A DNA stretch of 41,515 nt, from the IMG/VR virus record IMGVR_UViG_3300037488_001432, positions 1 through 41,515 of that record, one strand, 5' to 3'. The position numbers and the translations under genes were made by a program. The notes under the pieces were generated by a model that was not told the origin of the DNA, ran no database searches, and was given only the letters and a program-made list of their open reading frames with translations. Shown piece after piece: positions 1,880 to 17,344 of this stretch; within the stretch, counting starts at the first letter, position 1, and each line of letters starts with the position of its first letter. This stretch comes from a virus.

Positions 1880-1939
1880 GCCTAACCAAGCCCATCAACC
1901 CGCGACTGCTGCGCAGCGGGGTTATGGGCACCGTTAGGG
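1880..1939 (-). other. attC: attC site L4
   Basis: Minus-strand R'' CCCTAAC (1939-1933), R' GTTAGGC (1886-1880), 60 bp. The arms GCCCATAACCCCGCTGC and GCAGTCGCGGGTTGATGGGC pair with unpaired C and A on the 3' arm. It follows the Dam-type methyltransferase stop by four bases. Confidence 0.9.
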
Positions 1940-1943
1940 CACT

Positions 1944-2960
1944 TCAAAACAGCGCCTCCTGCACCGCGCGCTCTGGCGCACAGTGCGGGCTGCACCACAA
2001 AGTTTCCGAGGCGCTGTTCTCCACCGCCTCATCGGTCACTGCATAGCCCTTGCGCGCCGTCCAGGCCCGCAGGTGCCAGCCGTTCGCCAGTAGCGCGTCA
2101 TGCTCGCCAGCATGGCCGCAAAGCACGATCCGCAGCTTCTTGTCCTGTCCGTTGGCTGCGCACCAGGCGCGCACCTTGTCGGCAAGGTCGCCACCCACGC
2201 CGCCAGCCGCGTAGTCCATCGCGCCTTTCGTGTAAGGCGGGTCGAGAAACACCCCAGTCGTGCCGTGCCGTGTCGTCACGCTTTCGGTCAGCACGCGCTG
2301 CCAGTCGCCCACCGCAACCCGCACGCCCCGCGTGCGATCCTGCAGCGCGCCGAACCACTCATAGATGTAGTGCGTGCGGCCCTGGCCGGCATCGCCCAGG
2401 TGCGGCAGTTTCCGGTTCACGCCCCGGCCGGCATCGCCCAGGTGCGGCAGTTGCCGGTTCACGCCCCGGCCGGCATCGCCCAGGTGCGGCAGTTGCCGGC
2501 CGTCCACCAGCTTCTCGCCGTCATGCACCCACGGCCCGGTGCCGCTGCACCAGCCGCTGCCGATCCAGTTGCACGCGCCCCAGCACCACCAGCCCGCAAT
2601 CTTGGCGTCGTAATAGTCTGGGTCGGCGTGCAGCCGTTCCAGCAGGCCAGGCGCATGGCGTACCAGCCACGAGTGCCGCGCAAACAGGTCGGCCTCGTTG
2701 GTGGGCCAGTCGGTGTGCTTTGCCACGTCGGCCGCATCCAGCGACACCGCGCGCCAGAAGTTCGCCACAAAGCCGTCCGCGTCATTGATGGTTTCAACCT
2801 TGCCCACGTTGGGGCGCCCAAGCAGCATTGCCGCCGAGCCCGCGAACGGTTCTACGTAGTTCTCAGGGTCGCCCAGCGCGCCCCACACTGTCTCGCACGC
2901 CAGCGACTTTCCGCCAAAGTACGGGAACGGTGCTGCCAAGGTGCCTGCTACAGATTTCAC
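1944..2960 (-). CDS. Dam-like D12-class DNA adenine N6-methyltransferase
   Basis: Transfers methyl from SAM to adenine in DNA; in phages such enzymes commonly protect the genome from host restriction. Visible motifs: FPYFGGKS near residues 12-19 (SAM-binding motif I of the D12 family) and DPPY near residue 240 (catalytic motif IV). The GTG start at 2960-2958 was chosen because GGAGAACCA precedes it; a longer TTG-started frame would begin inside attC L5. The target-recognition region contains a 14-residue unit (QLPHLGDAGRGVNR) nearly three times in tandem, encoded by a 42-bp repeat. It forms a single-gene cassette between attC L5 and L4. Family call secure; target site unknown. Confidence 0.9.
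   Translation of the reverse strand: MKSVAGTLAAPFPYFGGKSLACETVWGALGDPENYVEPFAGSAAMLLGRPNVGKVETINDADGFVANFWRAVSLDAADVAKHTDWPTNEADLFARHSWLVRHAPGLLERLHADPDYYDAKIAGWWCWGACNWIGSGWCSGTGPWVHDGEKLVDGRQLPHLGDAGRGVNRQLPHLGDAGRGVNRKLPHLGDAGQGRTHYIYEWFGALQDRTRGVRVAVGDWQRVLTESVTTRHGTTGVFLDPPYTKGAMDYAAGGVGGDLADKVRAWCAANGQDKKLRIVLCGHAGEHDALLANGWHLRAWTARKGYAVTDEAVENSASETLWCSPHCAPERAVQEALF
2384..2500. repeat. 42-bp tandem repeat inside the Dam-like gene (about 2.8 copies)
   Basis: Units begin at 2384, 2426 and 2468, each starting GGCCGGCATCGCCCAGGTGC on the plus strand; the third is incomplete. The period is a multiple of three, so copy-number change alters protein length without a frameshift (14 residues per unit). 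Confidence 0.9.
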
Positions 2961-2986
2961 TGGTTCTCCATCTATCGTCGGAAGTG

Positions 2987-3044
2987 CCCTAACACGCAAT
3001 TCGAGGCGACGGCCTACGGCCGCGCCTCAATTGCAACGTTAGGG
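2987..3044 (-). other. attC: attC site L5
   Basis: Minus-strand R'' CCCTAAC (3044-3038), R' GTTAGGG (2993-2987), 58 bp. The arms GCAATTGAGGCGCGGCC and GGCCGTCGCCTCGAATTGC pair perfectly apart from the unpaired C and A in the 3' arm. The last residues of the upstream oxygenase-like gene are encoded in the 5' arm. Confidence 0.92.
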
Positions 3045-3436
3045 CGCACCTGATACGCGCACCCGCGCCATACGCGCTTTGAAATTACGCTGTGCAGCAC
3101 GCTGTCTTTAAACACCACAAAGTCACCTGCCCGCATGCGCTTTGCTTCCGTCCCAACTTGCAAGAACAGTTCCTCAAATCTTGGTAGGTCTACTACCCAG
3201 AACACAGCCGCGTAACGGCGCGGGTATTTGCCAGCGCCTACCCAGTCGTCTGTGTGCGGCTCCACGCAGCGCATGCGCAAGGCAACTCCTGTGGTGGCGT
3301 CATGCCTCCACTTGCTTCCGCAAGGCACGCAGCCAAAGTCCTGCGGCAGCGTCGTTGCAAACGAGTCGTCCGCAATCTCTCGCACCATGCGCCGCTGCGC
3401 TGGCGTCGGGTGTTGTGTTCCGGCCTCAAAAATCAT
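3014..3436 (-). CDS. 2OG-Fe(II) oxygenase-like protein
   Basis: A 140-residue protein starting MIFEAGTQHPTPAQRR. It carries PHTDDW (HxD, His61 and Asp63), a Tyr/Phe/Trp-rich strand (AAVFWVVD), the GDFVVFKDSVLHSV segment with a second His at 115, and a distal Arg (YQVRP). This order fits the HxD...H...R iron and 2-oxoglutarate site of the prolyl-4-hydroxylase/AlkB-like superfamily. The ATG at 3436 follows GGTGAAGAACAC; an upstream TTG at 3472 would start inside attC L6. The C-terminal tail (VAIEARP) is read from attC L5. Substrate unknown. Single-gene cassette. Confidence 0.7.
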   Translation of the reverse strand: MIFEAGTQHPTPAQRRMVREIADDSFATTLPQDFGCVPCGSKWRHDATTGVALRMRCVEPHTDDWVGAGKYPRRYAAVFWVVDLPRFEELFLQVGTEAKRMRAGDFVVFKDSVLHSVISKRVWRGCAYQVRPNVAIEARP

Positions 3437-3454
3437 GTGTTCTTCACCAGTGCG

Positions 3455-3511
3455 CCCTAACTGTCGGTTCAAGCGGACGCCGTGCCGGCGCCGCTTAACC
3501 TGGCGTTAGGC
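3455..3511 (-). other. attC: attC site L6
   Basis: Minus-strand R'' GCCTAAC (3511-3505), R' GTTAGGG (3461-3455), 57 bp. The arms GGTTAAGCGGCGCC and GGCGTCCGCTTGAACC pair with unpaired C and A, the classic attC arrangement. The stop of the upstream gene (3469-3471) lies inside the 3' arm. Confidence 0.92.
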
Positions 3512-4049: not shown

Positions 4050-4111
4050 GCCTAACCGGGCCGCTGTAGCCGACGCCCGCAAGCGTGCGCGGCTAACCGC
4101 CAACGTTATGG
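4050..4111 (-). other. attC: attC site L7
   Basis: Minus-strand R'' CCATAAC (4111-4105), R' GTTAGGC (4056-4050), 62 bp. The central 48 bases match attC L2 almost exactly (GCTGTAGCCGACGCCCGCAA and the following arm, plus strand). The TAA stop of the gene at 4106-4285 is inside R''. Confidence 0.88.
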
Positions 4112-4285
4112 CGCAGCGCGCTTTGCCGCACGTTCGCGGCGTCGAGCCAGCTTTGCAGCGTGCTCACGGATCGCTTCGACATCATCCGGGTGCGCCCAAA
4201 GGTTCGTCACCGGCACCAGGCCGGCAGCGATGCGCCGGGCTTTCAGATCGGCCTGGCGCTCTGCGTTGGTCTTGGCGGGACTCAT
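4106..4285 (-). CDS. Small basic RHH-like protein, family A (59 aa)
   Basis: Starts MSPAKTNAERQADLKARR, then a short strand-helix-helix-like segment (VTNLWAHPDDVEAIREHAAK) and a Lys/Arg-rich tail. Two paralogues occur in this genome (6542-6706 and 12961-13161), each the downstream gene of a promoter-led module. The layout suggests a small DNA-binding protein of the ribbon-helix-helix type; this is inference from shape. The ATG at 4285 overlaps the stop of the previous gene (ATGA). The stop lies in R'' of attC L7. Confidence 0.72.
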   Translation of the reverse strand: MSPAKTNAERQADLKARRIAAGLVPVTNLWAHPDDVEAIREHAAKLARRRERAAKRAAP

Positions 4286-4689
4286 ACGTTGTCGTAGGCT
4301 GTGCGCCGAATTTCCCAAAGCACATCCGGCACAGCCGGCCCGGTGCTGGCGTCGTGCGCCATGTCGCCAATTTGATGCAGCACTTCACGCAGCCGGTCGG
4401 CGTCACTGTTGGGCGGTGGTCCCACGTACAGCGCAACAGTCGCAATATCCGGGTTGTGGTGCGGCTCAGAGAACAACATGGTGATGCGGCCGTTCGGCAA
4501 CTGCCACCCATACGCCACAGGATCGGCGGGTGCTTCTCCGTGCGGCTCAGCGGCAACAGCCATCGCAGCTTTGTAGCCGGCTTCAAAGGCAGCTTCTATC
4601 CAATGCTCCGTTGTCTTGATAGCGCCTGTTTCTTTGGCCTCCGCGCGCCAAAGTTCCATTTCAAAAGCCGCTCGGCTTGCGGCTTCCAT
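4282..4689 (-). CDS. Hypothetical protein, module family B (135 aa)
   Basis: Starts MEAASRAAFEMELWRAEAKE. The C-terminal 40 residues (from DADRLREVLHQIGDMAHDAS to the end) are almost identical to those of the right-arm paralogue at 16202-16489, while the N-terminal parts differ. This implies a shared C-terminal domain with swapped N-termini. A central AYGWQLPNGRITMLFSEP motif looks like a short beta domain. Its ATG (4689) overlaps the upstream TAA by one base (TAATG). It is the middle gene of a three-gene cassette. Function unknown. Confidence 0.78.
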   Translation of the reverse strand: MEAASRAAFEMELWRAEAKETGAIKTTEHWIEAAFEAGYKAAMAVAAEPHGEAPADPVAYGWQLPNGRITMLFSEPHHNPDIATVALYVGPPPNSDADRLREVLHQIGDMAHDASTGPAVPDVLWEIRRTAYDNV

Positions 4690-4871
4690 TACGCGGCCTC
4701 GATGATCATGCGGTCGGTGCCATCGGGGTTGTAGCCCTTCAGGATGGTGATGGCAAACAGGTCGGCAAAGTCTTCGTGCAAGGCGCCGGTCTTGTAGGCT
4801 GCGGCAAAAACATCGAAGAACGTTGAGATGTCGGCGGCGGTGTTGTTGACGTAATGGATGCTGGTGTTCAT
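4689..4871 (-). CDS. Conserved 60-aa protein, module family C (left copy)
   Basis: Starts MNTSIHYVNNTAADISTFFD and ends DRMIIEAA. It differs from the right-arm copy (16020-16202) at only two residues, while most of the roughly 13 nucleotide differences between them are silent. This indicates purifying selection on the protein. The ATG at 4871 has a strong GGAGAGCAAC ribosome site. A sigma70-like promoter with a palindrome lies 31-59 bases upstream. First gene of a three-gene cassette. Family not recognised. Confidence 0.85.
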   Translation of the reverse strand: MNTSIHYVNNTAADISTFFDVFAAAYKTGALHEDFADLFAITILKGYNPDGTDRMIIEAA

Positions 4872-4901
4872 GTTGCTCTCCGTTTCGGTTGGTGTGCTTT
4901 C

Positions 4902-4930
4902 ATTGTGCGCCACCGTTAGCACTAACGCAA
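4902..4930 (-). promoter_or_regulatory. Cassette promoter with CGTTAG-N2-CTAACG operator
   Basis: -35 TTGCGT (4930-4925), 17-bp spacer, -10 CACAAT (4907-4902). The inverted repeat CGTTAG-TG-CTAACG (4927-4914) overlaps the -35 and spacer. It is the same design as the promoter at 7093-7121. It lies inside a cassette, between attC L8 and the family C gene. Confidence 0.65.
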
Positions 4931-4968
4931 GCACTATTTGCACGCACACATCGCGTCCCCCACCAGCG

Positions 4969-5024
4969 CCATAACCCACGCTCAAACGGACGCCGTACCG
5001 GCGCCGTTTAGCTCAGCGTTAGGC
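4969..5024 (-). other. attC: attC site L8
   Basis: Minus-strand R'' GCCTAAC (5024-5018), R' GTTATGG (4975-4969), 56 bp. The arms GCTAAACGGCGCC and GGCGTCCGTTTGAGC pair with unpaired bases as in attC L6, to which it is related. Confidence 0.9.
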
Positions 5025-5310: not shown

Positions 5311-5346
5311 GCCTAACCGGTCCGCTGTAGCCGACGCCCCCAAGCG
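5311..5346 (-). other. attC: Truncated attC (left-arm inner boundary)
   Basis: R' GTTAGGC (5317-5311) followed by the 3' arm GCTGTAGCCGACGCCC (plus strand), as in attC L2 and L7. The sequence diverges at about 5350, with no 5' arm and no R''. It marks the junction between the leftward core operon and the cassette array. Confidence 0.75.
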
Positions 5347-5430
5347 TGCCGACCCATTGGCATCCATCACATGTTTCGAGCAGACCCGCAACAGCGGGGT
5401 GCGTTGGTTCGGTCGTTGGTTTTTGCTCGG

Positions 5431-6257: not shown

Positions 6258-6545
6258 CTAAAACGGCGTCTCGTCCCAAAGCCGAGCCACGCCATTACGC
6301 TGATAGCGTAGGCCATCCACGCACCTAAAGGCGCCCACACAAGAGTCGGCCGATGTCAAAGAGAAGCGGTAGTTTTCGCAGGTTCGGCAGTCGCGCTCTG
6401 CGGCCACGGCGCGTGCAATCTCTCCGCGCAACTCGCACAGTTCGTCTATCGCCAGCCAAGCGTGCATGATGTCGGCGCCGTCGTACTCGCCGGTTTTTAG
6501 CTTTGTTCGCAGAAATTGCAGCTCGTTGTCGTCCATAGGTTTCAT
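6258..6545 (-). CDS. Hypothetical protein with Cys motifs (95 aa)
   Basis: Starts MKPMDDNELQFLRTKLKTGE. The C-terminal half has CRTCENYRFSLTSADSCVGA and FRCVDGLRY, four Cys that could bind a metal. The N-terminal part is helical (WLAIDELCELRGEIARAVAA). The ATG at 6545 overlaps the stop of the preceding small gene (ATGA); a second ATG at 6536 is possible. It is the last gene of the promoter-led cluster starting at 7060. Family not recognised. Confidence 0.75.
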   Translation of the reverse strand: MKPMDDNELQFLRTKLKTGEYDGADIMHAWLAIDELCELRGEIARAVAAERDCRTCENYRFSLTSADSCVGAFRCVDGLRYQRNGVARLWDETPF

Positions 6546-6706
6546 TTGTTCAAACGCTGCCGCTTCTTGGCCAACTTTGCTGCGTGCGCCTTGATTTCGG
6601 CATGGTCGTCAACATGCGCAAAAAGGCCGTTCACCTTTTTCACGCCTTCCGCCTCGCGCCGGGACTTTAGTTCAGCCTGGCGCTTGGCTCCGGTCTTTGC
6701 AATCAA
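6542..6706 (-). CDS. Small basic RHH-like protein, family A (TTG start)
   Basis: A 54-residue paralogue of the proteins at 4106-4285 and 12961-13161. Shared layout: KRQAELKSRREAEGVKKVN, then FAHVDDHAEIKAHAAKLAKK and a basic tail. Initiation is probably at the TTG 6706-6704, which overlaps the TGA of the upstream gene. The stop overlaps the next gene's ATG, so the whole chain is translationally coupled. A DNA-binding role is inferred from composition and shape only. Confidence 0.7.
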   Translation of the reverse strand: MIAKTGAKRQAELKSRREAEGVKKVNGLFAHVDDHAEIKAHAAKLAKKRQRLNK

Positions 6707-6876
6707 TGCGCTGCCCGCCTGGCTTTGATCTTGGCTATCAGCCGTTTGTGGGCTTCATAGGCTTCAATGATGGTCCCCCATCCTGCCAAAGTGCTAAACC
6801 TCATTTTTTCGGCCCATGCCAGCGCTTCCGGCGATTTTTGGCGGCTTTCGCCGCCGCTTGCTTCGCTGCGGCTCAT
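6703..6876 (-). CDS. Small hypothetical protein (57 aa)
   Basis: Starts MSRSEASGGESRQKSPEALA, then WAEKMRFSTLAGWGTIIEAY and a basic helix ending KIKARRAAH. The ATG at 6876 lies one base after the TGA of the preceding gene. A longer upstream in-frame start at 6927 would sit inside that gene and is less likely. Third-from-last member of the promoter-led cluster 7060-6258. Function unknown. Confidence 0.7.
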   Translation of the reverse strand: MSRSEASGGESRQKSPEALAWAEKMRFSTLAGWGTIIEAYEAHKRLIAKIKARRAAH

Positions 6877-6877
6877 T

Positions 6878-7060
6878 TCAGACCTTTGAGAATTCGCCGG
6901 TCTTGGCGCTTCGCAAACAAACAACACACCCGCCGCGCCTGCCTGTCAGTGTGTAGAAAGCAGGTTCCCAGCCGCGAGCGGCCAAGTCGGCAGCCAGGGC
7001 GCCTTCGATTGCTTCTACGTTGGTCACAGTCATTTCGCGGTTGTTGAGGGTGGCGTTCAT
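6878..7060 (-). CDS. Small hypothetical protein, first gene of a promoter-led cluster
   Basis: A 60-residue protein starting MNATLNNREMTVTNVEAIEG, then an Ala/Leu-rich helix (ALAADLAARGWEPAFYTLTG) and a RRGGCVVCLRSAKTGEFSKV tail with a CxxC. The ATG at 7060 lies 33 bases after the -10 box of a strong promoter. An internal ATG (residue 10) is an alternative start. Its position parallels the first genes of the cassette modules at 4871 and 12719, each of which follows a similar promoter. Confidence 0.72.
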   Translation of the reverse strand: MNATLNNREMTVTNVEAIEGALAADLAARGWEPAFYTLTGRRGGCVVCLRSAKTGEFSKV

Positions 7061-7092
7061 TTGCTTGCTCTGTTTGCTGATTCGATGGCTCT

Positions 7093-7121
7093 ACTATAAC
7101 CATCGTTAGCGCTAACGTCAA
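7093..7121 (-). promoter_or_regulatory. Strong early promoter with perfect CGTTAGCGCTAACG operator
   Basis: -35 TTGACG (7121-7116), 17-bp spacer, -10 TATAGT (7098-7093). The perfect 14-bp palindrome CGTTAGCGCTAACG (7104-7117) fills the spacer and overlaps the -35. A repressor bound there would block RNA polymerase. Confidence 0.75.
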
Positions 7122-7156
7122 CAGGATTTCAGCAAATTTACAAAGTCTTTTTGCGC

Positions 7157-12459: not shown

Positions 12460-12565
12460 CAGAAAACCCGGCGAGCTAAGCGACGGTGAGCTGTTGGCGC
12501 TGAGCCGCGCCGCGTTCGCGGTGGAATATGACCCCGCCGAGGTTCGAGCGCAGAAACGCGCCTAA
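12452..12565 (+). CDS. Cassette-encoded mini-protein (37 aa)
   Basis: Starts MTDRKPGELSDGELLALSRA and ends VRAQKRA; acidic then basic, probably one helix pair. The ATG at 12452 follows AGGAGCCAACGC, a good ribosome site. The TAA is part of R'' of attC R1. Position, ribosome site and stop-in-attC support it despite its length. Function unknown. Confidence 0.65.
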   Translation: MTDRKPGELSDGELLALSRAAFAVEYDPAEVRAQKRA

Positions 12566-12622
12566 CGTCGAAGTTAAGGCCGCTTGCTGTAAGCAAGTCG
12601 GGCCTTGAACGCCCCGTTAGGC
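12560..12622 (+). other. attC: attC site R1
   Basis: R'' GCCTAAC (12560-12566), R' GTTAGGC (12616-12622), 63 bp. The arms GTTAAGGCCGCTTGC and GCAAGTCGGGCCTTGAAC pair with unpaired bases in the 3' arm. Confidence 0.9.
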
Positions 12623-12660
12623 GGCTTCAATTTGATGCTGAAAATAGTTTTAAATAGCGC

Positions 12661-12689
12661 TTGCGTTACCGGAAACGTGGCGCTACACT
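12661..12689 (+). promoter_or_regulatory. Cassette promoter
   Basis: -35 TTGCGT (12661-12666), 17-bp spacer, -10 TACACT (12684-12689). The spacer begins TACCGGAAACGTGGCGC, which resembles the spacer of the promoter at 4902-4930 (GGTGGCGC next to the -10) but with a decayed palindrome (CGTTaccggaAACG). Confidence 0.65.
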
Positions 12690-12718
12690 GAAGGCACTGA
12701 AGCAACCGGAGAAGCTAA

Positions 12719-12964
12719 ATGACAATGGCCCTTGGAACCGTTTTGCCCACCGCCGAAATCTTGGCGCGCGGCGACGCACACGCCGCCTGGCTTGCAGGCC
12801 AGCAGCACAAAGCCGGCGCCGCCCTCAACGTTTGCGCAGCGCGCACTGTTGGCGGCGAAACCCGCTACTACAAAACATCGACGAAATACGCGGTAATTTC
12901 CAGAGGCATGCAGGTTCGGTGGTTTGAAGTCCGCGCCGATGGTGATTACCCTGTTCGCGGGTGA
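12719..12964 (+). CDS. Cassette-encoded hypothetical protein (81 aa)
   Basis: Starts MTMALGTVLPTAEILARGDA. It is an Ala-rich helical half (HAAWLAGQQHKAGAALNVCA) followed by a beta-like half (TRYYKTSTKYAVISRGMQVR, WFEVRADGDYPVRG). The ATG at 12719 follows CCGGAGAAGCTAA and lies 30 bases after a cassette promoter. It overlaps the next gene (GTGA). First gene of a two-gene, promoter-led cassette. Unknown function. Confidence 0.8.
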   Translation: MTMALGTVLPTAEILARGDAHAAWLAGQQHKAGAALNVCAARTVGGETRYYKTSTKYAVISRGMQVRWFEVRADGDYPVRG

Positions 12965-13161
12965 GCCCAGCCAAGACGACAAGCGAGCGCGTGCAGGCTA
13001 TGCGCTCTGCCCGCAATTCTCTGGGCTTGAAGCGCCTAGAGCTTTACGCGCACCCGGAAGACTGGCCGGCAATCAAAGCACTGGCCGAGAAGTTGCAAAG
13101 AAAGCGGGCGCGCGCCTTGCCGCAAAACAAGACGCCTAACGTTCGAGCTAAGCGCGTTTGA
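12961..13161 (+). CDS. Small basic RHH-like protein, family A (GTG start)
   Basis: A 66-residue paralogue of 4106-4285 and 6542-6706, beginning (V/M)SPAKTTSERVQAMRSARN, then LKRLELYAHPEDWPAIKALA and a Lys/Arg-rich tail. The GTG at 12961 overlaps the upstream TGA. The last about 10 residues (PNVRAKRV and neighbours) are encoded by attC R2, with the TGA in its 5' arm. Its recurrent position as the last gene of a promoter-led module suggests regulation of that module; this is inference. Confidence 0.75.
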   Translation: MSPAKTTSERVQAMRSARNSLGLKRLELYAHPEDWPAIKALAEKLQRKRARALPQNKTPNVRAKRV

Positions 13162-13203
13162 CACGGTACTCCGTGGCAAATCCGCTTGAGCGAGGGGTTA
13201 GGC
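13134..13203 (+). other. attC: attC site R2
   Basis: R'' GCCTAAC (13134-13140), R' GTTAGGC (13197-13203), 70 bp. The arms CGAGCTAAGCGCGTTTG and CAAATCCGCTTGAGCG pair with unpaired C and A. An inner hairpin CACGGTACTCCGTG closes the loop. Confidence 0.9.
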
Positions 13204-13496: not shown

Positions 13497-13583
13497 GCCT
13501 AACGTGGAGTTCAGCGGCGTGCCCGCTGGACATTCGAGTAACCACCCTGCTGGCGGCGCGTCCGCTGGAACGCAGGGTTAGGC
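13497..13583 (+). other. attC: attC site R3
   Basis: R'' GCCTAAC (13497-13503), R' GTTAGGC (13577-13583), 87 bp. The arms GTTCAGCGGCGTGCC and GGCGCGTCCGCTGGAAC pair with unpaired C and A in the 3' arm. Confidence 0.9.
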
Positions 13584-13829: not shown

Positions 13830-13916
13830 GCCTAACGTTTTGGTAACCGGCGCCCGCGCGCTGAAGTAATAGACCGGCTGGACGCTGCGGGGCGTCCGGT
13901 TGACCTAATGTTCGGC
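13830..13916 (+). other. attC: attC site R4
   Basis: R'' GCCTAAC (13830-13836), R' GTTCGGC (13910-13916), 87 bp. The arms GGTAACCGGCGCCC and GGGGCGTCCGGTTGACC pair with unpaired C and A. R' deviates at one base from GTTAGGC. Confidence 0.87.
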
Positions 13917-14152: not shown

Positions 14153-14249
14153 GCCGAACGTTCGAGCTAACCTGGACCCAACGGCGTGACCATGCTGGAC
14201 AACCACACTGCTGATGCCGTTGGGGCTCAGGTTGAGCGAGGGGTTGGGC
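14153..14249 (+). other. attC: attC site R5
   Basis: R'' GCCGAAC (14153-14159), R' GTTGGGC (14243-14249), 97 bp. The arms GCTAACCTGGACCCAACGGC and GCCGTTGGGGCTCAGGTTGA (continuing GC) pair over about 20 bp with unpaired C and A. Confidence 0.88.
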
Positions 14250-14451: not shown

Positions 14452-14509
14452 GCCCAACGTGGCCGCTAACCGGCAGCCGTAGGCTGTCCGGTTGAGTGGC
14501 GGGTTATGC
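14452..14509 (+). other. attC: attC site R6
   Basis: R'' GCCCAAC (14452-14458), R' GTTATGC (14503-14509), 58 bp. The arms GCCGCTAACCGGCAGCC and GGCTGTCCGGTTGAGTGGC pair with unpaired C and A. Confidence 0.9.
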
Positions 14510-14535: not shown

Positions 14536-14769
14536 ATGAGCGACTTTTGCAGAACCGCCGAGCAGAGAAAGGCCGCGAAGGAACACCGCTGCACCTATTG
14601 CGGCGAAGGCATCCCGAAGGGCGAGGTGTACCAAGAGCAAACGGGCGTTTGGGACGGTGCGGCATTCCGCAACAAGTTTCACGCCGAGTGCTTCCAGGCG
14701 CTGTGCGATGAGGGCGAAGGCGAGTTCACGCCGTACAGCGAAACACGGCCCGAGCGGGCTGACGCCTAA
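14536..14769 (+). CDS. Cassette-encoded zinc-finger-like protein (77 aa)
   Basis: Starts MSDFCRTAEQRKAAKEHRCT. CTYCGEGIPKGEVYQEQTGV provides a CxxC, and FRNKFHAECFQALC provides HxxC with a further Cys, a treble-clef or LIM-like zinc site. The C-terminus is acidic. The ribosome site is GAAGGAAAGACG. The TAA lies in R'' of attC R7. A single-zinc adaptor or DNA-binding role is likely; the target is unknown. Confidence 0.78.
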   Translation: MSDFCRTAEQRKAAKEHRCTYCGEGIPKGEVYQEQTGVWDGAAFRNKFHAECFQALCDEGEGEFTPYSETRPERADA

Positions 14770-14850
14770 CGTTGTATTGAGCGGCGCGCGCACCGGCCTG
14801 GACGGAGTGTGACCATGCCGTTGCGCGTCCGCTCGAATACGGGGTTAGGC
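14764..14850 (+). other. attC: attC site R7
   Basis: R'' GCCTAAC (14764-14770), R' GTTAGGC (14844-14850), 87 bp. The arms GTATTGAGCGGCGCG and CGCGTCCGCTCGAATAC pair perfectly except for the unpaired C and A. Confidence 0.93.
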
Positions 14851-14869: not shown

Positions 14870-15097
14870 ATGAAAGACAGTGATTTGATTGCAGAAGTGG
14901 CCCGCGTGTGGGTTGACGGCGGCGGCGATGCTGAAGGCATTGCATGGAGCGCCAGCAGCCTACAGGTCGCGGTCATGGTGGAGATTGACCGCCGCAGGGA
15001 GGATGCCGAAGCGCTTGCATCGCTGCGAGCAGTCCGCGAACAGTGGGAGGCGGAGAGACACGCCCGCCTGACAGCCAATGGTGGCCTTGGGGCCTAA
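14870..15097 (+). CDS. Cassette-encoded hypothetical protein (75 aa)
   Basis: Starts MKDSDLIAEVARVWVDGGGD, then AWSASSLQVAVMVEIDRRRE and a long charged helix (EALASLRAVREQWEAERHAR). The ATG at 14870 follows TGGAGAAGCAAGC. The TAA lies in R'' of attC R8. Soluble, helical, unknown function. Confidence 0.78.
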   Translation: MKDSDLIAEVARVWVDGGGDAEGIAWSASSLQVAVMVEIDRRREDAEALASLRAVREQWEAERHARLTANGGLGA

Positions 15098-15160
15098 CGG
15101 TAGCGTTGAGCCGGGCACAACGGTACGCCGTTGTGACTCGGCTCGAACGCGGGGTTAGGT
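15092..15160 (+). other. attC: attC site R8
   Basis: R'' GCCTAAC (15092-15098), R' GTTAGGT (15154-15160), 69 bp. The arms GCGTTGAGCCGGGCACAAC and GTTGTGACTCGGCTCGAACGC pair with unpaired C and A; loop GGTACGCC. Positions 15093-15159 are identical to attC R9. Confidence 0.93.
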
Positions 15161-15843: not shown

Positions 15844-15912
15844 ACCTAACGGTAGCGTTGAGCCGGGCACAACGGTACGCCGTTGTGACTCGGCTCGAAC
15901 GCGGGGTTAGGG
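15844..15912 (+). other. attC: attC site R9
   Basis: R'' ACCTAAC (15844-15850), R' GTTAGGG (15906-15912), 69 bp. The interior is identical to attC R8; only the outermost base of each core differs. Confidence 0.93.
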
Positions 15913-15958
15913 CGCTGGTGGAGAAACGCGGCTAGGTTTGCGTGTTACAAAATAGTTG

Positions 15959-15986
15959 TTGACGCTGGAGGTTGCTGTGCTACAGT
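15959..15986 (+). promoter_or_regulatory. Cassette promoter (right copy of the three-gene module)
   Basis: -35 TTGACG (15959-15964), 16-bp spacer, -10 TACAGT (15981-15986). The surrounding leader (GCGCTGGTGG after the attC R', CGGAGAGCA before the ATG) matches the left-arm module, but the CGTTAG palindrome is absent here. Confidence 0.7.
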
Positions 15987-16019
15987 AACGACATCGCAAC
16001 ACACCAAACGGAGAGCACC

Positions 16020-16202
16020 ATGAACACCAACATCCACTACGTCAACAACACCGCCGCCGACATCTCCAAGTTCTTCGATGTCTTCGCCGCCGCCTACAAG
16101 ACCGGCGCCCTGCACGAAGACTTCGCTGACCTGTTCGCCATCACCATCCTGAAGGGCTACAACCCCGACGGCACCGACCGCATGATCATCGAGGCCGCTT
16201 AA
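16020..16202 (+). CDS. Conserved 60-aa protein, module family C (right copy)
   Basis: Starts MNTNIHYVNNTAADISKFFD; 58 of 60 residues match the left-arm copy (4689-4871). The two DNA copies are inverted relative to each other and differ at about 13 of 183 bases, mostly in third positions. The ATG at 16020 has a CGGAGAGCACC ribosome site. It overlaps the next gene by one base (TAATG). Function unknown, but its conservation and own promoter suggest a useful product. Confidence 0.87.
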   Translation: MNTNIHYVNNTAADISKFFDVFAAAYKTGALHEDFADLFAITILKGYNPDGTDRMIIEAA

Positions 16203-16489
16203 TGAAAGCCGCAGAAGTGCGCGAAGATGGTGCTGTTCCGGTGGCGTGGATCACCAATGACGAGTATTCGTCAGGATCGTACTCACCGCCATACCGAGAA
16301 AAACGGCTTTCATGGCATAGGCCAGCCAATAACGGCACACCTCTATATACCGCCGCACTAACCGACGACGCTGACAGACTGCGTGAAGTTTTGCGCCGCA
16401 TTGGCGACATGGCGCACGACGCCAGCACCGGGCCAGCCGTGCCGGATGTGCTTTGGGAAATCAGGCGCATGGCCTACGACGAAGTATGA
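16202..16489 (+). CDS. Hypothetical protein, module family B (95 aa)
   Basis: Starts MKAAEVREDGAVPVAWITND. Its last 40 residues (DADRLREVLRRIGDMAHDAS and on) nearly match the left-arm paralogue 4282-4689, whereas the first half is different and shorter. PVAWITNDEYSSGSYSPPYR resembles short domains of unknown function found in other phage mini-genes. Coupled upstream (TAATG) and downstream (ATGA). Unknown function. Confidence 0.8.
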   Translation: MKAAEVREDGAVPVAWITNDEYSSGSYSPPYREKRLSWHRPANNGTPLYTAALTDDADRLREVLRRIGDMAHDASTGPAVPDVLWEIRRMAYDEV

Positions 16490-16671
16490 GCACCGACAAG
16501 AGCAAAGGCGGACGCCCGCCAGCCCCGCCCGGCCAGCGCCGGGTGAACGTGCCGCTGCGCCTGCCTGAATGGCTGGTGCAGTGGATGGCAGAGCAGCCGG
16601 AGACGCCTGCGGAGTTGATAGAAGCCGCACTGCTGAAGGCGCACAAGCTGCGCCCGCCGCGTGCGCCCTAA
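16486..16671 (+). CDS. Ribbon-helix-helix-like mini-protein (61 aa)
   Basis: Starts MSTDKSKGGRPPAPPGQRRV. NVPLRLPEWLVQWMAEQPET and PAELIEAALLKAHK fit a strand followed by two helices, as in CopG/Arc-type DNA-binding proteins. It occupies the position of the family A gene in the left-arm module, so the third slot is always a small basic protein. The TAA lies in R'' of attC R10. Regulatory role inferred. Confidence 0.72.
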   Translation: MSTDKSKGGRPPAPPGQRRVNVPLRLPEWLVQWMAEQPETPAELIEAALLKAHKLRPPRAP

Positions 16672-16767
16672 CGATAGCTTCAGCGGGCCTGAACGGCCCG
16701 CGAGAAAGGTGACACATGAGTGAAACTTTGGAGGCCGTTCGGGCTCCGTTGCAAGCGCCAGTTAGGC
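16666..16767 (+). other. attC: attC site R10 (long, 102 bp, contains a start codon)
   Basis: R'' CCCTAAC (16666-16672), R' GTTAGGC (16761-16767). The arms GCTTCAGCGGGCCTGAACGG and CCGTTCGGGCTCCGTTGC (continuing AAGC) pair over about 22 bp with two mismatches and unpaired G and A on the 3' arm. The loop holds AAAGGTGACAC and the ATG at 16716. Confidence 0.9.
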
Positions 16768-17048
16768 ATCCCGCCACAAAGCGCGAGATGGTGCTTTACC
16801 ACGCTACGACACCCAAGAAAGTGCAGCACTACCACGCAAGCGGCAGGATCATTGCACCGGTGCGCGGCTTCACGAGCCTACAGGCGGCGATGGCATGGGC
16901 ATGCAAAACAGGGCGCAGTGTGGTGCTGGCGGTGCAAGGCAAGGACTGCCACAAGTTGCCCGACCACCACAACCAGTTCGGCGAGGCGTGGTGGGTGGAT
17001 CACGATGTTTCGGCGTGGAAGTGCGTATTCTCGCCGAAGGATGCCTAA
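16716..17048 (+). CDS. Hypothetical protein starting inside an attC loop (110 aa)
   Basis: The ATG at 16716 follows AAAGGTGACAC, both within the loop of attC R10. Residues 1-17 (MSETLEAVRAPLQAPVR) are encoded by the attC 3' arm and R'. The remainder is KREMVLYHATTPKKVQHYHA, SGRIIAPVRGFTSLQAAMAW and a Trp-rich end (FGEAWWVDHDVSAWKCVF). YHATTP plus the downstream strands recall small ADP-ribosyltransferase-like or RNA 2'-phosphotransferase-like folds, but I cannot confirm this. Last gene of the right array; its TAA lies in a lone R''. Confidence 0.75.
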   Translation: MSETLEAVRAPLQAPVRHPATKREMVLYHATTPKKVQHYHASGRIIAPVRGFTSLQAAMAWACKTGRSVVLAVQGKDCHKLPDHHNQFGEAWWVDHDVSAWKCVFSPKDA

Positions 17049-17049
17049 C
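17043..17049 (+). other. attC: Unpaired R'' core (right-arm outer boundary)
   Basis: GCCTAAC at 17043-17049 overlaps the stop of the last cassette gene exactly as in the complete sites. No complementary 3' arm or R' follows in the next 200 bases. Confidence 0.55.
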
Positions 17050-17344
17050 AAGGCAATATCACAACCTTGAAAAGTAGCCGCTAAAAAATGAGGCAAGCAA
17101 TGGCCTAATAAAACCAAAGGCCAAGCACTAAAAACACCTAATGGCTTACGTAGTGGCGTTTCTAAGTGGTTGATTTACAAGGCGATAGTAAAAAGCTATC
17201 GGGCCGATAGGAAAAATCAATCAAGCGCGCAGCTTGACACGTGGCACCATACAAAAATGGCTGTTTCTTCAGGCTTTGCCTTGCGCAACAACCGACAATC
17301 GGGGCTAACTCTCGCCCCGATCCCCTCTCTCAAGGTTTTGGTGA
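17050..17344. promoter_or_regulatory. Late control region (gene-free)
   Basis: This 295-base AT-richer gap between the cassette array and the late genes holds a promoter with CGATAG repeats (17174-17210). It also holds a TTGACACGTGGCAC motif (17234-17247) and a hairpin ATCGGGGC...GCCCCGAT (about 17298-17322) without a T tract. No convincing coding frame is present. Confidence 0.7.
17174..17210 (+). promoter_or_regulatory. Candidate late promoter with CGATAG/CTATCG operator
   Basis: -35 TTTACA (17174-17179), 17-bp spacer, -10 TATCGG (17197-17202). CGATAG (17183-17188), CTATCG (17196-17201) and another CGATAG (17205-17210) form overlapping inverted repeats across the spacer and -10. The scaffold-gene promoter at 21802 has the same element. 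Confidence 0.55.

Follow-up and report, generated by a model that had tools for sequence, protein, structure and literature searches.

The 41,515-base virus contig analysed here (the window, with 133-nt direct repeats at both ends) contains two inverted copies of a three-gene module. With a probability of about three in four, each copy would represent a single cassette in a phage-borne attC array of the integron type, composed of a promoter with its operator, a payload and a gene for an autorepressor. The attC-type sites, their orientation antisense to the genes, the breaks of homology at the R' box and the way in which promoter types pair with last-gene types are all evident in the sequences compared.

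A terminase-portal-capsid block lies on the right of the window. On the left, small genes, among them those for ERF, NinB and two DNA methyltransferases, form two arms that diverge from a point at ~9-10 kb. The terminase has 27 relatives in IMG/VR (68-87% identity); comparison of the whole region with the DNA of cultured phages returned no match, nor did an Rfam scan.

Two copies of a C-B payload

Copy 1 is encoded on the minus strand (promoter 4930-4902; C 4871-4689, 60 aa; B 4689-4282, 135 aa; third gene 4285-4106, 59 aa) and copy 2 on the plus strand (promoter 15959-15986; C 16020-16202, 60 aa; B 16202-16489, 95 aa; third gene 16486-16671, 61 aa), as the preliminary description had placed them. 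The inverted repeat that spans both copies comprises 227 nt at 90% and 173 nt at 79% identity, far above chance. Protein C indeed differs at only two of 60 residues (S4N and T17K), 11 of the 13 base differences being silent, and the purifying selection proposed for it is borne out (dN 0.014, dS 0.346). B likewise keeps only its C-terminal part, the last ~41 residues being common to both copies (dN 0.09, dS 0.61 over the last 41 codons). The genes of each module overlap by 1-4 bases (TAATG, ATGA), so that translation of C, B and the third gene is probably coupled, and the TAA stops of both third genes are located within the next attC box.

Other elements of the two copies are distinct. A promoter had been noted at the head of each copy; the two promoters differ. 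The third genes had been taken for different RHH-like proteins; they do differ and that of copy 2 has an RHH pattern, but that of copy 1 (A1) belongs to another family, named A. Moreover, the module had been described as present once per arm, which holds for C+B, whereas the promoter-payload-A plan occurs twice more, at ~7130-6542 (A2) and ~12655-13161 (A3). Derivation of both copies from one duplicated cassette was considered and rejected, as the promoter, the N-terminus of B, the third gene and the body of the upstream attC site all differ. A related payload, C+B, is carried in this one genome by two different promoter/regulator pairs.

attC-type sites antisense to the genes

In both arms, the small genes are separated by hairpins, which end in GCCTAAC/GTTAGGC and contain inner L stems and a single extra base. 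These hairpins, which bound both copies, are absent from the preliminary description. About 20 such attC-type sites are found in the window; a scan gave more than 10 sites at a score of at least 14, against 0.3 expected from Markov-resampled sequence, and nearly all have the extra C in L''. By its attC sites with R''/R' and L''/L' boxes (a minimum of two being required), the extra base in L'' and the lack of a nearby intI, the window may be classed as a CALIN; it is not called an integron because the genome has no intI with attI. Neither a tyrosine recombinase nor an integron integrase was found in the window.

Module 1 is preceded by a site at 4968-5024 (minus; R boxes GCCTAAC/GTTATGG, L stems with the extra base, orientation score 9.0 versus 7.0), whose attC top strand is the plus strand, antisense to the genes, and is followed by a site at 4050-4112 (minus; orientation scores of 8.0 versus 8.0 by the extra base), which holds the A1 stop codon in its box. 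Module 2 is preceded by a site at 15844-15912 (plus; top strand is the minus strand), of which 67 nt are identical to 15092-15160, and followed by a site at 16666-16767 (plus), inside which the next gene begins (start codon at 16716). The other left-arm sites are at 640-742, 1008-1068, 1495-1611, 1880-1939, 2987-3044 and 3455-3511 (minus), and the other right-arm sites at 12560-12622, 13134-13203, 13497-13583, 13830-13916, 14153-14249, 14452-14509, 14764-14850 and 15092-15160 (plus).

A gene for an N6/N4 methyltransferase is flanked by the 15092-15160 and 15844-15912 sites with their 67 identical bases, an arrangement that looks as if the gene had been inserted by site duplication. The site at 1008-1068 looks hybrid, one half being nearly identical to 4050-4112 and the other half, with the leader, to 5311-5375. 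A 55-nt inverted repeat (80%) with GCCTAAC-like boxes is found at the outer ends of both arms (158-212 and 17040-17094), and may mark the borders of the attC arrays.

In true integron cassettes, the extra C of L'' lies on the sense strand of the gene. The controls of our orientation test, class 1 integrons and phage TJE1, behaved in this way, all their resolved sites being same-sense, whereas each site of the window with a clear call is antisense to its genes, in both arms. The search was extended to IMG/VR with an exact 18-base attC end, which alone retrieved at least 119 environmental phage stretches. Among 265 distinct sites in 98 records, the window and a sister contig included, 461 neighbouring genes are antisense and 5 same-sense, and antisense neighbours predominate in 98 of 98 records; as all contigs except the window were gathered via one attC subfamily, the count covers that subfamily. 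For this survey, genes were called by a simple codon-usage script and contigs were taken as viral from their IMG/VR assignment; eight of ten sampled contigs have PHROG matches (tail, tape measure, primase or endolysin). The typical integron rule, by which a gene has the same orientation as its attC, is thus broken in the window and in its relatives, which raises the question of why phages reverse the bacterial arrangement. A stop codon in the box was rejected as the cause of the inversion, since real integron cassettes often end with TAA there too. In Vibrio cholerae, cassette excision increases strongly when the array is reversed in such a way that the lagging template carries the recombinogenic strand of attC (PMC11023631); the inverted arrangement would act likewise in phages whose forks move in the direction of transcription.

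A sister phage (IMGVR_UViG_3300017747_002940, terminase 87% identical) has ~14 such sites, one of which matches plasmid attC sites with 81-85% identity. One of these plasmid sites belongs to a class 1 integron, where it separates blaIMP-1 from aac(6')-Ib4 and the genes are in normal orientation.

Homology between contigs tends to break at the sites. Of the unique internal ends of blastn matches, 209 out of 770 fall inside sites, compared with 4% expected, many of these ends being non-independent because the contigs are related. The ends cluster at site bases 7-9, which on the sense strand is the end of GCCTAAC, with 24 distinct site bodies represented there versus 5 at the other box. A Dam methylase cassette with its upstream site (1932-3040, minus) is common to contigs L104 (93-95%) and L068 (87%) and ends exactly at the boxes. 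With the breakpoints so placed, the unit of exchange is a site with its downstream gene, the mirror of a classical cassette, which matches the prediction of the inverted orientation. An integron integrase may recombine the sites at the R' box, for which these breakpoints are indirect evidence. Within the Dam methylase gene, 2379-2504 consists of three tandem copies of a 42-nt unit, in frame, and the product of the cassette gene at 3014-3472 (minus) has weak similarity to aspartyl/asparaginyl beta-hydroxylases (E 0.001, under the Pfam cut-off).

An integrase search in 20 contigs gave any match in three and one above the cut-off. The record behind L104 (G015, IMGVR_UViG_3300050161_000187) codes for a full IntI (TIGR02249, 425 bits; L168, 1489-2529, minus) beside its array. 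There, the attC sites are normal relative to intI and the genes alone are reversed. G015 also carries a phage-type primase and an HNH endonuclease, and shares the Dam cassette of the window; its integrase may be part of the phage or of a chromosome that flanks it.

The hairpins could instead be RNA elements that serve to process or attenuate the early transcripts or to switch their translation, exchange then taking place by homologous recombination at conserved boundaries. In favour of this view, the window lacks an integrase, and the downstream gene starts inside the site in 115 of 220 cases over all contigs; in the window, the sites at 640-742, 1495-1611 and 16666-16767 include the next gene's start codon and are partly coding. 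Furthermore, G.U pairs exceed A.C pairs in the sense RNA (48 versus 26), but tolerance of G.T pairs when the coding DNA strand folds explains this excess equally well. The rules of integron integrases are obeyed by the two R boxes, by the additional C in L'' and by the breakpoints on the R' side, and close relatives of these hairpins are real integron attC sites, so that we consider a function as RNA elements improbable.

Promoter types and their last genes

The promoter of module 1 (4902-4930, minus; TTGCGT - 17 nt - CACAAT), called type A, has a predicted operator palindrome CGTTAGTGCTAACG at 4914-4927. The same architecture, a 17-nt spacer holding a 14-nt palindrome between the -35 and -10 boxes, leads the third module (6542-7130, minus; palindrome CGTTAGCGCTAACG at 7104-7117; TTGACG - 17 nt - TATAGT; A2 gene 6542-6706). 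A palindrome, CGTTACCGGAAACG, is also found at 12664-12677 in the fourth module (12655-13161, plus; payload 12719-12964; A3 12961-13161). The type-A -35 box is weak, with three of six consensus bases. Besides its two further occurrences in the window, family A is found in other attC contigs.

A scan of 1.05 Mb for the motif alone (CTTG and the 14-nt near-palindrome CGT..ACG) recovered nine distinct promoters, and an A gene follows at 0.2-0.65 kb in nine out of nine testable cases, being the last gene before the next site wherever the available sequence reaches a site. A tenth match, at the edge of contig L097, has too little downstream sequence for this check. Contig L161 has an A gene but not the promoter motif. 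The 17-nt spacer is kept in 10 of 10 type-A promoters, that of A2 included. The palindromes fall into classes CGTGAGTGCTCACG (four promoters), CGTTWCCGGAAACG (three) and CGTTAGYGSTAACG (three), which pair one to one with three subfamilies of A; the chance of such a match is 4!3!3!/10! = 2.4e-4, an indicative value as the classes were set after the data had been seen. The palindrome GTTAGN(1-4)CTAAC was tried as a mark of every A promoter and rejected, as the half-site varies with the A subfamily.

Five of ten A members match NCBIfam UrfF (plasmid repression protein F, NF041430) co-linearly, the best at 9.1e-6 and 25.7 bits, under the equivalog cut-off of 100 bits, and A1 at 0.0067, far under the curated cut-off. 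A match to PHROG 536 (transcriptional regulator, 3.5e-5) was obtained for one member of A. The predicted fold is helix, short strands, helix (pLDDT 90), and a PDB fold search with this model found no match. In RSF1010, the operon that encodes protein F is repressed by F itself (PMC2200642, PMC5559103), and the A family appears to be a remote relative of this autorepressor, although F precedes repA and repC, unlike A, which is the last gene. The function of the module had been regarded as undescribed; a relationship to a well-characterised family was found for A1 only, and it is remote. That A1 binds the palindrome in its own promoter and represses it is a prediction strongly supported by these comparisons.

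Module 2 has another leader and promoter, called R-type (15905-16015, plus; promoter 15959-15986, TTGACG - 16 nt - TACAGT). The leader is 75-91% identical in attC-bearing contigs, mostly those with the RHH-like last gene, and the last gene has counterparts of 81-93% identity in nine further attC-bearing contigs and one of 58% in a tenth. In most contigs with this gene, the leader and the last gene are kept and the genes between differ; in L139 and L075 the last gene alone was matched. By eye, its product has an RVNVPLRLP strand and a two-helix pattern; searches of Pfam, the PDB and profiles gave no match. The RHH-like protein is a probable repressor of the R-type promoter.

The conserved chassis is formed by the promoter and the third gene, and C+B is an exchangeable payload. 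The mosaic evolution and the functional unit proposed earlier are supported, but the change of third gene is not mosaic noise. A toxin-antitoxin cassette, of which bacterial integrons hold many, with C or B as the toxin and the last gene encoding an antitoxin that regulates its own synthesis, could account for small overlapping genes behind their own promoter and for an RHH-like last gene. It is nevertheless unlikely, as many unrelated payloads go with one regulator family, no toxin family was found in Pfam, PHROG or PADLOC, and RHH antitoxins seldom have this gene order.

Known systems and the payload

Clusters of attC sites in phages are already known: Qi et al. 2023 (PMC9892861) reported 17 CALINs among 10,705 phage genomes and regarded them as infrequent. 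Like the window, those CALINs lack an integrase, include methyltransferase cassettes and have attC sites that separate small phage genes. The window differs in its ~20 sites, its two divergent arms and the antisense orientation of all resolved sites, phage TJE1 of the same study being same-sense. We found no report of inverted phage attC arrays or of their promoter-payload-repressor chassis in the open-access papers searched.

The type-A modules also recall acr-aca operons, in which inverted repeats lie within the core promoter (PMC9410906): both have their own early promoter with such a repeat, a variable small payload and, in last position, a small predicted DNA-binding autorepressor. Unlike acr-aca operons, those of the window lie inside attC cassettes, and no Acr was identified. 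The regulators of the window have no HTH or Aca-type match in Pfam, PHROGs or NCBIfam; with neither an Aca family match nor an Acr, the cassettes are not filed as acr-aca. We infer that the accessory cassette is autorepressed and works like an acr-aca operon. Once the DNA has entered, the host polymerase would fire the free promoter, C and B would then be made in a burst, and the accumulating product of the last gene would shut the promoter. With a last gene that shuts its own promoter, the payload could move between positions or phages without mis-expression. The pairing of operator and regulator could serve, like guilt-by-association with aca, as a rule for choosing candidate early anti-host or counter-defence payload genes.

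A wider proposal, to which we give slightly less than even odds, is that a widespread class of phages has inverted integron arrays, with attC antisense to every gene and the coding strand recombinogenic (and, should replication and transcription proceed in the same direction, the lagging-strand template as well). These arrays, on which a host IntI or occasionally a phage-encoded one would act, would trade standard autorepressed promoter-payload-repressor cassettes, and could be searched as a store of early anti-host genes.

Neither PADLOC nor Pfam gave a match for C or B, PHROG gave no strong one, and a PDB fold search with the C model (pLDDT 85, the other four models being at 71 or lower) found no match. 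From their position and regulation we infer an early host-directed role; action on the host or on host defences is speculative. The preliminary description took C, B and A for one conserved unit, which is not borne out, and called for a wider search for C next to B. No second C-B pair was found outside the window, B relatives were not found in phages, and no C relatives were found in the bacterial genome contigs searched. A dedicated three-gene defence or counter-defence system with cooperating parts, as the gene overlaps and the strong purifying selection on both copies of C might suggest, has little likelihood, given that other phages have C without B and A, that the last gene accompanies other payloads and that PADLOC recorded no match.

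Other phages, including several Pseudomonas phages, carry relatives of C (51-66% identity) as single genes with neither attC sites nor B; these relatives share invariant ADLF and DGTDRM motifs. Unlike in the window, the homologues of Pseudomonas phages PS-1, LPPA33 and Pa-X (55-60% identity, both motifs kept) stand alone, without attC sites, B or A; that of PS-1 lies downstream of a repressor, in an operon. A further C relative, at 7989-8171 of L008, a record from an isolate genome, has an in-frame stop.
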